Below are positions 54,192 through 62,142 of a DNA stretch of 64,000 nucleotides, one piece after another. The position numbers were made by a program, and so were the translations under genes. Below the pieces are notes generated by a model. It saw only the letters and a program-made list of their open reading frames with translations. It did no database searches and was not told where the DNA came from. The DNA is from Botrimarina mediterranea. GTDB lineage: Bacteria; Planctomycetota; Planctomycetia; Pirellulales; Lacipirellulaceae. The first letter of the stretch is position 1; every line of letters begins with the position of its first letter. The stretch covers positions 5,516,862-5,580,861 of the forward strand of contig NZ_CP036349.1 of the NCBI RefSeq assembly GCF_007753265.1, written 5' to 3'.

Positions 54192-55337
54192 TTACTTCAA
54201 CTGCACCGCGAAGCCACTCAACCTTCGGATCGCTCCGCCCGCTTCCAGTCGCGACAGCCCTGCTAGCACCTGATCGATTGGTAGCCCCGTCTCATCGATA
54301 AGCTGATCGATAGTCGTCGCGTCGCGGCCCACTCTGTCGAGCAGCGTCTTGGTAGGCTCGTCCCATTCGATGGCGGGAAGCGTCTTCTGCTTCGGCGGCG
54401 CGCTCGCGACGCGGGATGGTGATGGCGCCGCTGGCGGCATCGATAGCTGCGCCATCGCTTCGAGCTCTTCGAGCACGTCCTCGACCGCAGTGACGAGTTT
54501 TGCGCCTTCTTGAATCAAACGGTGGCAACCCATTGATTGCGGGCTATCGACCTGCCCCGGCAGCGCAAAGGCGTCGCGTCCTTGCTCGGCGGCGTGGCGC
54601 GCGGTGATCAGGGCGCCGGAGCGCTCGGCCGCTTCGACGACCAGCACGCCCAGCGACAAGCCGCTGATGATCCGGTTGCGTTGGGGGAACGATCCACTCA
54701 GCGGCGGCATCGGCGGCGCGGCCTCGGCCACCAGCGCGCCGCAGCCCGCCACCGCGTCGGCGAGCCGGCCGTGCTCGGGCGGATAGATCTTCATCAGCCC
54801 GCCGGCCAGCGCCGCGATCGTCCGACCACCCGCGTCGAGCGCCGCGCGGTGGGCGACGCCATCGACGCCGCGCGCCAGACCGCTCACGACCGTCACGCCC
54901 GCCGCGGCGAGGTCGCGCGCGAACCGCTCCGTCTGGCGCAGCCCGTAGCGTGTCGCCAGCCGTGTGCCGACGATCGCCACGGCGCGCTGATCCCGCGGTT
55001 CGATCGAACCGCGGCAGTAGAGCACCGGCGGCGGGTCGGGGATCTCGCGCAGCCCGGGCGGGTACTCTTCGTCGCCGAGCGTGAGGACACGGATGCCGTG
55101 CGCGGCGGCCTCGTCGAGCATCCGCGCGGCGTCATCGACCGACGGCGCTTTGAGGATCGCCTCGGCGAGCTTGGCCCCCACGCCGCGCACCGCTTGGAGG
55201 TCGGACGACGGCGCGGCGAGCACGCCGTCCGCCGAGCCGAGCGCTTCGATGAGCCGGCTGCGAAGCATCGGCCCCACGCCCCGGACACACGTCAGCCGCA
55301 CCTCGGCAAGGACTTCGTCGATCGTCGGGCGCGGCAT
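54192..55337 (-). CDS. dprA: DNA-processing protein DprA
   Basis: 381 aa. The Rossmann-like DprA/Smf core (about 80-290) contains AIVGTRLATRYGLRQTERFA, VVSGLARGVDGVAHRAALDA and GSFPQRNRIISGLSLGVLVV, with a helix-hairpin-helix region before it (about 10-65, RGVGPMLRSRLIEALGS) and a winged-helix C-terminal domain (about 325-381). It loads RecA on incoming single-stranded DNA in natural transformation. Length and domains are normal. No competence genes are adjacent. Confidence 0.96.
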   Translation of the reverse strand: MPRPTIDEVLAEVRLTCVRGVGPMLRSRLIEALGSADGVLAAPSSDLQAVRGVGAKLAEAILKAPSVDDAARMLDEAAAHGIRVLTLGDEEYPPGLREIPDPPPVLYCRGSIEPRDQRAVAIVGTRLATRYGLRQTERFARDLAAAGVTVVSGLARGVDGVAHRAALDAGGRTIAALAGGLMKIYPPEHGRLADAVAGCGALVAEAAPPMPPLSGSFPQRNRIISGLSLGVLVVEAAERSGALITARHAAEQGRDAFALPGQVDSPQSMGCHRLIQEGAKLVTAVEDVLEELEAMAQLSMPPAAPSPSRVASAPPKQKTLPAIEWDEPTKTLLDRVGRDATTIDQLIDETGLPIDQVLAGLSRLEAGGAIRRLSGFAVQLK

Positions 55338-58543: not shown

Positions 58544-59359
58544 ATGCACACGCTCGCCGTCATCAATCAGAAGGGAGGCGTTGGCAAGACGACCACGGCC
58601 GTCAACCTGGCGGCGTCGCTCGCCCGGGCCGGGCAACGCGTCGGGCTGATCGACCTCGATCCCCAGGCCCACGCCTCGCTGCACCTCGGCGCCGACCCCA
58701 AGCGGCCGTCGGCGACCACCTACGACCTGCTGACCGGCGACGCCACGCTCGACGAGGTCTGGTTCGACACGGCCGAGGGCGTGCGGGTGGCGCCGGCCCA
58801 TATCGACCTCGCCGCGGCGGAGATGGAGCTGGCGAGCGTCGTCGGCCGGGAGATGATCCTCCGCGACAAGCTCGTCGGCGCCGAGGCCCAGTTCGACTAC
58901 GTCCTGGTGGACTGCCCACCGTCGCTGGGCGTGCTAACGCTCAACGCGTTGTCGGCGGTCGAGGACGTCTTCCTGCCGCTCCAGCCGCACTTCCTGGCCC
59001 TGCACGGCCTCAGCAAGCTGATGACCACCGTCGGCCTCGTGGCGGACCGGCTCAACCCGCGGCTGAAGATGGCGGGCGTCGTGCTCTGTATGTATGAGTC
59101 GGGCGTCCGGCTCTCGGCCGAGGTCGCCGCCGACGTCGAGGCCTACTTCGGGCAGCTCCGCCAGCGCGGCGGCCCCTGGCGGCACGTCCGGCTGTACGAC
59201 AGCCGCGTCCGCCGCAATATCCGCCTCGCCGAGGCCCCCAGCCACGGTCAGTCGATCTTCCAGTATGACGCCAAGAGCCGCGGCGCCGAGGACTACAGCG
59301 CCCTGGCGGGCGAGGTTCTGGCGTACTACGCGGGGCGGGAGTTGCTCGCAGCGGCGTGA
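58544..59359 (+). CDS. ParA/Soj-type ATPase
   Basis: 271 aa from the ATG at 58544; the upstream in-frame extension is noncoding. The deviant Walker A KGGVGKTT (10-17), the partner motif VDCPPSLGVLTLNALSAVED and a C-terminal LAEAPSHGQSIFQYD are all typical of chromosomal ParA. It partitions chromosomes or positions cargo on the nucleoid. No parB, parS or gidAB neighbours, so it is an orphan here; the ParB-fold protein at 916-1467 is not a likely partner. Confidence 0.93.
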   Translation: MHTLAVINQKGGVGKTTTAVNLAASLARAGQRVGLIDLDPQAHASLHLGADPKRPSATTYDLLTGDATLDEVWFDTAEGVRVAPAHIDLAAAEMELASVVGREMILRDKLVGAEAQFDYVLVDCPPSLGVLTLNALSAVEDVFLPLQPHFLALHGLSKLMTTVGLVADRLNPRLKMAGVVLCMYESGVRLSAEVAADVEAYFGQLRQRGGPWRHVRLYDSRVRRNIRLAEAPSHGQSIFQYDAKSRGAEDYSALAGEVLAYYAGRELLAAA

Positions 59360-59380
59360 GTACTTGGCGATGACTCAATC

Positions 59381-59420
59381 CGCAATTAGCCACCGGTCAA
59401 TGACCGGGGGCTAATTGAGG
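59381..59420. terminator. Hairpin after the ParA gene (possible terminator)
   Basis: Arms caattagccaccggtca (59382 on) and accgggggctaattg (to 59417) pair around atg; no long T run follows, so termination is uncertain. Confidence 0.45.
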
Positions 59421-59629
59421 GGGCGAAGCGCCGGCGGGGCCGCCGGCTATCTCATTGCGTTTCCCGTCCAGTTTGTGACGCAATTCACAAACCCTTTTCT
59501 CTCCGGGATTTAGAGCGCCAGCGGGAACCTTTCGAGGCGCCCGGTCGTCTTACTTTCGCTGTCGCAGAATCGCGCAATCGTCTCATTTTGAGAACGCTGA
59601 TGTGGCAGTCGCGACTTCAGAAATTGCAA

Positions 59630-59648
59630 TTTTGACAGTCCGTCAAAA
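59630..59648. promoter_or_regulatory. Perfect inverted repeat, possible activator site
   Basis: TTTTGAC-agtcc-GTCAAAA, 19 nt, 113 nt upstream of the sigma-54 promoter, a typical distance for an enhancer-binding protein site. Confidence 0.55.
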
Positions 59649-59761
59649 ATGCTGGCGCCACCCCGATCGGTGAACAAAACAGCGCCTACCCGACGTAAAA
59701 CGCTTTCCAAGAATGCCTTAGGAAAAACGAACCCCTAGCAGGCAACGACGCCAGACCGATC

Positions 59762-59777
59762 TGGCACGAGCGTTGCA
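59762..59777 (+). promoter_or_regulatory. Sigma-54 promoter of the ECF sigma gene
   Basis: TGGCACG-agcg-TTGCA matches the -24/-12 consensus TGGCACR-N4-TTGCW fully, with GG and GC in the invariant places. It lies 206 nt upstream of the start at 59968; the predicted start site is near 59789. Confidence 0.8.
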
Positions 59778-59967
59778 ATTACTAGGAGCTGTGCCGAGCC
59801 ACGCCCCCCGCAAGGAGGTGGGGCAAACGCCCGGCGCCACGCGTCCAACGCCCCAAGGAACATTACGAGTACGCTCGTTAGGGGCCGCGGGATCACTATA
59901 AGAGACGCCGGGGAAGCAAGGACTCGTTCCCTCTAGCCGTCGAACTCTGAGAAGAGGAGTTCGTAGG

Positions 59968-60624
59968 ATGACCAAGCAAGCCACGGAAGATCGGACCATC
60001 AACCTCGCCGCCCTGCGGGAGACGGCCCTGGAGCAGCTCACCGACGAGCAACTCCTGGCCCTCCACCAAGAGGGTGACGAAGACCGTCCCTACCTCGCCA
60101 CGCTGATCCAGCGTTACGAGCGGGAGCTCTATAGCTTCCTCCGCCGTTATCTGGGCGACGCCGCCCTGGCCGAAGACGCCTTCCAGGCCACGTTCCTCCA
60201 GGTCCACCGCAAGGGGCACCTGTTCGACTCGGGCCGGAAGTTCCGTCCCTGGCTGTACACGGTCGCTACGAACCGGGCGATCGACCTGCAACGCCGGAAC
60301 AAGCGTCACCAAGCGGTCAGCCTGAACCGCTCGGCCCGCGCCGAAAACTCCGACAGCGGCTCGCTGATCGACCTGTTGCCCTCGGGCGAAACGGGTCCCG
60401 GCGAACGCTTCGAGTCGGCCGAGCGTACAGAGTGGGTGAGGCGAGCCGTCGCCAGCCTGCCGGAGCCTCTCCAGCAGGTGGTGTCGCTCGTCTACTTCCG
60501 CGGCATGAAGTACCGCGAGGCGGCCGACGAACTCCAGGTGCCGGTTGGCACCGTGAAGAGTCGGTTGCACTCGGCGGTCGGCAGCCTCGGCCAGCAGTGG
60601 CGTGAAGCCCACCCGGCGACCTGA
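59968..60624 (+). CDS. ECF-type RNA polymerase sigma factor
   Basis: 218 aa; ATG with GAGGAG about 10 nt upstream. Region 2 (about 48-112): YERELYSFLRRYLGDAALAE, FRPWLYTVATNRAIDLQRRN. Region 4 (about 158-210): LPEPLQQVVSLVYFRGMKYR, VPVGTVKSRLHSAVGSL. A long N-terminal extension (1-45) and a Ser-rich linker (120-150) separate them. It directs transcription of a regulon, probably envelope or stress linked. It is followed by its probable anti-sigma and preceded by a sigma-54 promoter. Confidence 0.94.
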   Translation: MTKQATEDRTINLAALRETALEQLTDEQLLALHQEGDEDRPYLATLIQRYERELYSFLRRYLGDAALAEDAFQATFLQVHRKGHLFDSGRKFRPWLYTVATNRAIDLQRRNKRHQAVSLNRSARAENSDSGSLIDLLPSGETGPGERFESAERTEWVRRAVASLPEPLQQVVSLVYFRGMKYREAADELQVPVGTVKSRLHSAVGSLGQQWREAHPAT

Positions 60625-60817
60625 GACACCGTCCCTCTCCCACCCACCGGAGCGGGCCGCTCGGCGACGGGCGGCTCGCTTCGCGTTTTTAGGGGCCGTC
60701 CGGTCCCGAGGCTGCTGGCCCGTGGCGGCGCGGGTGAAGTAAGCTTGGGGATCGGTTCACGGACCGGCGGGGCGATTCGGCCCACCGGCATTCCTGCGTC
60801 GCGGGCGGCGGTTTTCG

Positions 60818-61819
60818 ATGTGCGACGAAGACGAACAACTAGTCCGATACTACTTCGGCGAACTTTCGGACGCCGAGAAGGCCGCGTTTGAGCAGCGCCT
60901 TGTTGATGAGCCGGACCTTGCCGAGCGGCTCGAGACTTTCAGCCGGTGTGTCGACGCCCATCAGGGCGCCGAATGCTGCGAAGAATCGGAGCCGGAGAAA
61001 GTCCCCGTCCCTCGACGCCTCGCTGACCGCACGGCCCACGCCATCCTGGCCGGCCACTTAGAGCGCGCCGGCGAGTGCGTCGGCCGCAAGCGGTACAACC
61101 TCGTCGAGGTCGTCGCGATTGGCGTCGCGGCGACGTTCCTGGGCGGACTGATCCTGCCGGCGATCGAAGCGAGCCGCGAGTCGTCTCGTCGCGACCAATG
61201 CGCGTTCAACCTTGCGACTCTGGGTCAAGGCCTGCAGAGCTATTCGCAAGACCACGGCCACATCCCGCAGATCGGTCTTACCCAAAACGCCGGCCTCTTT
61301 ACGTTGATGCTCGCCGAGGGGCGGTACTTCGACCGAGAAGAGCTTCAAAGGTCGCTCGTCTGCCCCTCTTCGAATCTCAGTCAGATGATCGCTGACGGTG
61401 AGTTGAAGGTTATCATCCCGACGCGCGAACATCTTGAAGCGGCCAACGCCGAGCAACTCCTCGAACTGCAACGGCTCATGGCGGGGAGTTACGCCTACCG
61501 CATCGGTTACTTCCAGGGACGCAGTTTCATTCCCTTCGGCGGCAAAGGCGGCTGCCGTTCGGCGATCCTAGCGGACACGCCTACCCTGGCGAGTGGGACC
61601 GAGGTTGTCAGCCGCCATCACGGCAAGTGCGGCCAGAACGTCCTCTTCGGCGACGGGCACGTCGCTTTTGTCTCGAGTTGTTGGGCGCCCGACGACGTCG
61701 ACCACCTCTACCTCAACGACGACAACCAGCTCGCCGCCGGCCACGACGAATACGACATCGTGCTGCTCCCCGGCGACGTAACGCCCCTGGGCGTGCAGCT
61801 CTTCGAGCTCGGCGAGTAA
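60818..61819 (+). CDS. Probable membrane anti-sigma with DUF1559-like periplasmic domain
   Basis: 333 aa. Residues 1-50 are an anti-sigma-type helical domain (LVRYYFGELSDAEKAAFEQR, VDEPDLAERLETFSRC) without the usual zinc HxxxCxxC. The membrane helix at about 93-117 (NLVEVVAIGVAATFLGGLIL) is followed by PAIEASRESSRRDQCAFNLA, which mirrors the prepilin/DUF1559 start of the gene at 35878 but at an internal position. The C-terminal part carries a degenerate DUF1559 closing motif (KCGQNVLFGDGHVAFVSS, about 269-286). It most likely holds the adjacent ECF sigma at the membrane until an extracellular signal is sensed. Confidence 0.75.
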   Translation: MCDEDEQLVRYYFGELSDAEKAAFEQRLVDEPDLAERLETFSRCVDAHQGAECCEESEPEKVPVPRRLADRTAHAILAGHLERAGECVGRKRYNLVEVVAIGVAATFLGGLILPAIEASRESSRRDQCAFNLATLGQGLQSYSQDHGHIPQIGLTQNAGLFTLMLAEGRYFDREELQRSLVCPSSNLSQMIADGELKVIIPTREHLEAANAEQLLELQRLMAGSYAYRIGYFQGRSFIPFGGKGGCRSAILADTPTLASGTEVVSRHHGKCGQNVLFGDGHVAFVSSCWAPDDVDHLYLNDDNQLAAGHDEYDIVLLPGDVTPLGVQLFELGE

Positions 61820-61865: not shown

Positions 61866-62142
61866 CTAGAGCGTGCTTCACTTGGTCGTAGCGCTTCTAG
61901 CCTCGCTCTGATCCACGGAGCAACTTGGGAAGTCTCGCGCAGAGACGCAGAGTTGGATACCTTCAAGACTCACGCAATGGCGTAAGCCGCAATGAACGCG
62001 TTGCTGTGTGATCGTTTGCGGCTGCGTCATTCTCAAGGACTTTGTCTTTGCGCCTTGGCGGCTTTGCGTGAGTCTTCGCTGCCGACCCTCTGCGTCTCCG
62101 CGTCTCTGCGCGAGACGCTGCGGCAAAGTGAACGACGCTGTA
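61866..62142. repeat. H element copy 3 (reverse orientation)
   Basis: Begins gagcgtgcttcacttggtcg, the complement of the end of copy 1 (25261-25308), then gcgcagagacgcagag, actcacgcaatggcgtaagc, ggcggctttgcgtgagtctt and gcgtctccgcgtctctgcgc. No gene in 61820-62350. Confidence 0.88.

Follow-up and report, generated by a model that had tools for sequence, protein, structure and literature searches.

What might a membrane protein sense if an anti-sigma-like domain sits at one end, a pilin fold at the other, and its gene lies directly behind that of a sigma factor? The question is raised by a locus in a 64,000-nucleotide (nt) stretch of the genome of Botrimarina mediterranea (Planctomycetota, Pirellulales, Lacipirellulaceae; contig NZ_CP036349.1, positions 5,516,862 to 5,580,861), which we call the window. 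An extracytoplasmic function (ECF) sigma gene is followed there by a gene for a protein of 333 amino acids (aa). Judged on sequence and structural models, the locus is probably a switch formed by an ECF sigma factor and a membrane anti-sigma factor, with transcription started by sigma-54 and with an uncleaved pilin-fold protein as its sensor. The two genes, and the parts predicted for the second, are as follows.

59968..60624, + strand: ECF sigma factor, 218 aa (Sigma70_r2 at 5.1e-19 and Sigma70_r4_2 at 3.9e-13; orthologue alignment A2).
60818..61819, + strand: predicted pilin-like anti-sigma factor, 333 aa (Pfam DUF1559; AlphaFold predicted local distance difference test score (pLDDT) 87; alignments A1 and A3).
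60818..61066, + strand: predicted class I anti-sigma domain, residues 1-83, four helices (VIA-align on residues 1-59).
61094..61255, + strand: pilin-like helix, residues 93-146 (hhalign to DUF1559 paralogues; E97, R92).
61256..61816, + strand: pilin-like globular body, residues 147-333 (pilin matches; expected outside the inner membrane).

A preliminary description of this DNA had placed an ECF sigma gene after the promoter, and Pfam sigma-70 regions 2 and 4 confirm it. These are the only sigma regions in a protein of the ~200 aa typical of ECF factors, and its model is helical (pLDDT 81.7). The same description had assigned the next protein an anti-sigma-type N terminus, joined to a membrane helix and body that mirror DUF1559 pseudopilins. 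Both halves were recovered in the AlphaFold model (45 sequences, pLDDT 87), which has four N-terminal helices, a helix at residues 95-146 and an alpha/beta body, and which holds the pilin fold rather than a structure unlike DUF1559.

Structural comparison of Foldseek candidates by VIA-align, a tool for which a Z below 8 can mean merely a common arrangement of elements, matched residues 1-59 to RslA (Z 6.4, root-mean-square deviation (rmsd) 3.5, 58 residues aligned), AlgU-MucA (Z 6.0, rmsd 2.3, 51 aligned; a second entry at 5.8, 2.7 and 52) and RseA (Z 5.2, rmsd 3.4, 49 aligned). Residues 90-313 were matched to PilA4 (Z 5.9, rmsd 3.3, 120 aligned), the TcpA pilus (4.5, 3.8, 140), the 1ay2 pilin (3.7, 3.8, 114) and others, pilin structures spanning Z 3.0–5.9 overall. 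Five of the entries shown exceeded Z 5, namely four anti-sigma structures and one pilin. The N terminus thus models as a class I anti-sigma fold, with an N-terminal helical arrangement at modest Z and a gene adjacent to that of an ECF sigma, and the remainder models as a type IV pilin fold, with a long N-terminal helix on a beta-sheet body. The zinc-binding HX3CX2C motif is absent from the window protein on inspection. Passages of PMC7406223 divide class I into zinc and non-zinc members, with HX3CX2C as the zinc signature, and describe class I anti-sigmas with group-specific fused sensor domains.

The kinship of the second half to DUF1559 was also found at the sequence level. PF07596 (DUF1559) matched at 36.6 bits (cut-off 23.3), the best stretch covering just the 40 residues 118-157, and hhalign against seven DUF1559 paralogues from the source genome gave 98.5% over 63 columns. 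The H-X9-DG model TIGR04294 matched marginally, at 19.2 bits against a cut-off of 19. The source genome, of 5.87 Mb, contains 88 DUF1559 matches.

Prepilin peptidase requires Gly(-1), and Glu5 of pilins matters for assembly. In the preliminary description a prepilin-like segment lies internally; hhalign sets R92 on Gly(-1), Y93 on Phe(+1) and E97 on Glu5. The window protein therefore keeps the acidic residue and has an arginine where the glycine should be. Among relatives, position +5 is D or E in 28/28 rows of alignment A1 and in 44/45 rows of alignment A3, being Asp in most, and Gly(-1) occurs in none of the 28 A1 rows. (A1 comprises 28 of 30 loci, L017 and L033 being left out for uncertain starts; A3 comprises the window and 44 of the 80 loci named below.) A prepilin peptidase is encoded in the genome (match at 1.2e-16). 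Cleavage of the 333-aa protein is not expected, because Gly(-1) is replaced by Arg, and its loss appears likely from the alignments.

The preliminary description had proposed a search of planctomycetes for the same pair, and this search found it widely. With the sigma alignment A2 as query (28 of 30 loci; left out were L025, a stretch without the sigma gene, and L034, which was cut), at least 545 candidates were confirmed, and the best 80 form the named loci. In 71 of these 80, a fusion partner recognized by the A1 profile lay no more than 800 nt behind the sigma gene on the same strand. Of the nine loci lacking an adjacent partner, three were at contig ends (L059, L078, L090). No partner was found near the sigma gene in L080, L088, L108, L112 and L113, and in Adhaeretor mobilis (L049/L025, G020) the sigma and anti-sigma genes are ~8.5 kb apart, judged by contig coordinates. 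In a set of 59 genomes of relatives that includes the source genome, 35 had a match to the 333-aa query spanning residues 7 or earlier to 316 or later; the raw tally of 59/59 also counts other DUF1559 proteins matched over a short helix stretch.

Farther out, the sigma profile was found at E <= 1e-30 in 136 of 294 genomes drawn from the phylum. Of the best 29 of these loci besides the window (L126-L154), 28 had an open reading frame (ORF) matching the A3 profile and one (L129) had none. The search, run without filters on a small database, gave E values from 3.5e-88 to 3.2e-6; L144 and L149 were the weakest, and the N-terminal part alone often matched weakly. Three of the 29 (L143, L147, L154) carry the HX3CX2C zinc anti-sigma signature near the N terminus, which supports the anti-sigma reading of the corresponding part of the window protein. 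Because it extends beyond Pirellulales to other lineages of the phylum, the sigma/pilin-like pair is probably old.

What starts transcription of the pair? The upstream region contains the following.

59762..59777, + strand: sigma-54 -24/-12 promoter TGGCACGAGCGTTGCA (11/11 consensus positions; conserved in relatives).
59625..59638, + strand: conserved upstream element TGCAATTTTGACAG (family pattern TG[CT]A[AG]-N3-TG[GA]CAG; 137 nt before the -24 box).
59630..59648, strandless: inverted repeat TTTTGAC-AGTCC-GTCAAAA (perfect 7-nt arms; overlaps the element at 59625..59638).

The site TGGCACGAGCGTTGCA stands 206 nt upstream of the sigma gene ATG. It qualifies as a predicted sigma-54 promoter by its GG at -24, its GC at -12, the fixed spacing between them and its conservation; from the usual spacing, transcription would start near 59788. 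Distinct upstream regions were scored after leaving out duplicates, stretches with N and regions below 400 nt. Sites with at least nine of the 11 consensus positions were present in 54 of 94 regions, with at least 10 in 34 and all 11 in 13, at 153–419 nt ahead of the start codon (median 237). On the reverse strand, six of the 94 regions reached nine and none reached 10; block shuffles reached nine in 174 of 4700. In Lacipirellulaceae-type regions, a grouping of our own, 24 of 26 reached nine and the other two scored eight. The genome encodes rpoN (match at 5.3e-63) and gave 19 activator-domain matches, 16 of them at E <= 1.4e-39. The consensus promoter that had been described at these coordinates is thus conserved well above its reverse-strand and shuffled controls. 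Computation supports the proposed cascade from sigma-54 to ECF: the site is conserved and rpoN and activators are present. The site is limited to part of Pirellulales, and the pair is wider.

Of 60 distinct site-bearing loci, 22 have the pattern TG[CT]A[AG]-N3-TG[GA]CAG, each time 126–140 nt upstream of the -24 box; it is the best candidate for an activator binding site. The inverted repeat to which the preliminary description had drawn attention is present with perfect arms, but it is not the widely conserved upstream element. Among three relatives in the same genus, the first arm survives in two (L010, L011) along with most of the second, and neither arm survives in L017; in the upstream alignment the repeat was not seen beyond the genus. 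We dropped it as an activator site in favour of the element it overlaps, whose conservation is wider. A strict search of the genome for a second copy of TGCAANNNTGGCAG gave one only, ~1.4 kb from the prepilin peptidase match, with no sigma-54-like site seen beside it; we took it as chance.

Between promoter and start codon lies a further layer.

59847..59975, + strand: structured RNA leader (covariation; matched by covariance model R1 at 1.0e-20, the window sequence being one of the training rows of R1).

This leader is common to Lacipirellulaceae-type loci and was modelled over 128 positions, with the ribosome-binding sequence GAGGAG (59954-59959) held in its last hairpin. In alignment A5 (24 of 26 leaders; L024 and L031 were left out for an insertion), a structure of 24 pairs was formed in 96.2% of cells, with eight pairs changed on both sides, and slid controls paired 41–50% of cells. 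The covariation score was reached by 0/500 shuffles, a comparison to be read knowing that the structure was derived from the alignment on which it was scored and that related sequences can exceed shuffles. Folding of 59840-59985 as a single sequence gave no signal (z -0.04); only covariation gave one. A search of Rfam with 59300-61000 had no plus-strand match, and two minus-strand matches inside the sigma gene, far below gathering scores, were taken as chance. With the covariance model, 31 of the 36 genomes of the family (training rows included) each yielded a single copy, and the 23 genomes outside the family one marginal match (E 0.0098), from which we infer that the leader belongs to the sigma operon.

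A-N-GGA is the CsrA motif, and it is enriched in the leaders (2.6 per leader, against 0.7 in shuffles). Genes for csrA were found in 59/59 genomes, with five matches in the source genome; being so widespread, they are weak evidence for control of the leader. CsrA-type control is possible on this evidence. The leaders resemble CsrA/Rsm-regulated ones in the enriched motif, the ribosome site in a hairpin and the csrA genes in relatives, and differ in being known from sequence and in that the second loop lacks A-N-GGA in one of the 24 (L011). As a separate observation, a csrA paralogue (L173-L192) has an upstream sigma-54-like GGCA[CTA]-N5-[GTA]TGC in 18 of 20 genomes; the reverse strand shows one in two of the 20. 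Sigma-54 may control both csrA and the ECF operon.

The sigma factor may also act on its own gene. Two boxes bear on this.

59942..59965, + strand: proximal ECF-type box GAAC-N16-CGTA (overlaps the last leader hairpin; ends 2 nt before the ATG).
59672..59698, + strand: distal box GAAC-N18-CGTAA (ECF-promoter-like).

GAAC-N16/17-CGTA has the typical shape of an ECF promoter. Once duplicates and regions below 120 nt were left out, 101 distinct regions remained, and 69 of them had it no more than 75 nt from the start codon, compared with 7/104 in a control segment and 28/10600 mononucleotide shuffles; spacings of 15 and 18 were permitted in the search and neither was needed. The proximal box occurs in regions both with and without a sigma-54 site, which suggests that the ECF sigma autoregulates through this candidate promoter box. 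The box ends 6–7 nt before the ATG in 37 of the 69, fitting a leaderless transcript, and 2–4 nt before it in 19, the group to which the window belongs. Of 60 distinct loci, 22 have the distal form, GAAC-N17/18-CGTAA, some 90 nt ahead of the sigma-54 site. A regulon, whose definition had been proposed in the preliminary description, was sought in the source genome with CGAACYNT-N13/14-CGTA and did not emerge: there were 15 sites, against five for the backward control, and 11 of the 15 are covered by an ORF of at least 120 aa (an antisense one at the window's own site). Among the other four is a box upstream of csrA, which was not counted as an ECF target because it lies within a sigma-54-like site.

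Some features of the surroundings were recorded as well. A dprA-like gene lies upstream of the sigma operon in six of the 80 named loci (L041, L049, L055, L057, L062, L101). Its identity as this DNA uptake/recombination gene was confirmed by Pfam for L055, L057 and L062. The window's copy, which served as query, is at 54192-55337, 4.6 kb away and on the other strand. With six of 80 named loci, a general link of dprA to the operon is not established. Downstream of the operon, at 61930-62125, are two CGCAGAGACGCAGAG-like stretches in opposite orientation that resemble a dispersed repeat.

How would these parts work together? We propose that sigma-54 RNA polymerase, switched on by an enhancer-binding protein, would start transcription of the pair, and that the leader would limit translation by sequestering the ribosome-binding site in a hairpin. 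With the pilin helix as its anchor, the anti-sigma domain would hold the sigma factor at the inner membrane. Prepilin peptidase would leave that helix uncut, there being no Gly(-1), and the pilin body outside the membrane would read the envelope; its likeliest input would be how large the pool of the many DUF1559 pseudopilins is or how far they are assembled. Sigma factor once freed would feed back on its own promoter box and act on its regulon. A more specific version, which we offer tentatively and consider rather doubtful, is that the uncleaved pilin-fold anti-sigma joins or competes for the pseudopilus machinery. ECF activity would then be set directly by how far the DUF1559 proteins are assembled or how well they are supplied, while sigma-54 and the leader would set the amount of the pair.

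Several observations weigh against the switch as we propose it. Anti-sigma sequence models matched the 333-aa protein weakly (NF052375 at 21.4 bits with a cut-off of 100, PRK13920 at 18 bits with a cut-off of 225), Foldseek against the PDB gave no match at E <= 0.001, and the VIA-align Z values are modest, below the tool's safe level of 8. Gly(-1) is found in eight of the 45 A3 rows; seven ordinary DUF1559 rows comprise five with Gly and two with Ala at -1, and the step in which the protein stays uncleaved is weakened because these two also lack the glycine. Six of 80 loci, with sequence running 4 kb downstream, lack an adjacent partner. The sigma-54 site is missing in 40 of the 94 upstream regions, chiefly in more distant loci. 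As for the proximal box, its role in the window is uncertain, because a transcript from a box ending so near the ATG would probably start inside the gene. To these is added the motif search of the source genome, with its 15 sites against five in the control and no regulon.

Of the other explanations considered, the one that survives best accepts a true ECF/anti-sigma pair and takes the pilin part for a mere anchor, or for a sensor that binds a ligand, unconnected with the assembly of pili or pseudopili. We regard this as quite possible, if short of probable. The motif search yielded no regulon or partner evidence for pili, and C182, D253 and H268, invariant in 28/28 A1 rows, could make up a site for binding or for structure. 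What speaks for more than an anchor is the acidic residue at the Glu5 position, so consistently kept in A1 and A3.

It is improbable that the sigma-54 site is fortuitous or vestigial and that the operon is driven solely by the ECF factor itself or by a housekeeping sigma. The 40 regions that lack the site would fit such a history, as would the GAAC/CGTA box found in regions of that kind, but the excess over the reverse strand (54 against six of 94), the near-constancy of the site in Lacipirellulaceae-type regions (24/26) and the conserved element at a narrow upstream distance argue otherwise. Slightly less probable still is that the 333-aa protein has nothing of an anti-sigma and is a diverged DUF1559 pseudopilin extended at its N terminus. 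Matches to anti-sigma sequence models far under curated cut-offs, together with modest structural Z, leave some room for this; against it, residues 1-59 align best to RslA, MucA and RseA, the gene is adjacent to the sigma gene in 71 of 80 loci, and three distant relatives carry the zinc anti-sigma signature. The last alternative, that the neighbour helps the sigma factor, recruiting it to the membrane or activating it, and is no inhibitor, we consider very unlikely, its fold matches being to inhibitors of ECF sigmas.

On the reading we prefer, a sigma-54-started ECF/anti-sigma switch with an uncleaved pilin-fold sensor, the locus has relatives among known systems on three sides. It is like RseA, MucA and RslA in the modelled N-terminal helical anti-sigma fold, the single membrane helix and the gene directly behind an ECF sigma; unlike them, it is modelled with membrane helix and sensor united in one type IV pilin fold, of the sort that DUF1559 proteins have. 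Passages of PMC8567305 describe an expanded SBP_bac_10 family with a prepilin motif in planctomycetes. With the DUF1559/SBP_bac_10 pseudopilin-like proteins the window protein shares the homologous helix and following segment and the pilin fold, whereas an anti-sigma-like domain replaces the prepilin leader, Gly(-1) is Arg, and Asp stands for Glu5 in most relatives. HrpL of Pseudomonas syringae, as portrayed in passages of PMC5263251, is an ECF sigma made from a sigma-54 promoter with an upstream activator site and ECF feedback. The predicted hierarchy from sigma-54 to ECF is the same here, with a candidate upstream activator site and putative feedback by the ECF factor, but HrpL governs type III secretion, and what sets the present locus apart is its conserved pilin-fold neighbour, its structured leader and a possible promoter for the sigma factor itself. 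A fusion of anti-sigma and pilin was not found in the open-access literature searched, and ECF classification works outside that literature may list the group; the passages of PMC12316311, PMC2754498, PMC8103513 and PMC8546353 at hand do not describe it.

What is new, then, is an ECF/anti-sigma pair with a predicted pilin fold as its membrane sensor, an arrangement that is real and conserved, and unusual. Also new are the ECF-type box near the start codon, the covarying leader and the element ~130 nt upstream of the sigma-54 site. The function of the DUF1559 pseudopilin-like proteins of planctomycetes is largely obscure, numerous as they are (88 matches here), and a regulator of the same fold offers a handle on what the cell monitors. 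Control of the pair would be layered, comprising sigma-54, a leader RNA, an ECF box and a membrane anti-sigma. If our reading is true, a pilin-type sensor would be added to ECF signalling, and cells could read the state of a pilus-like machinery.

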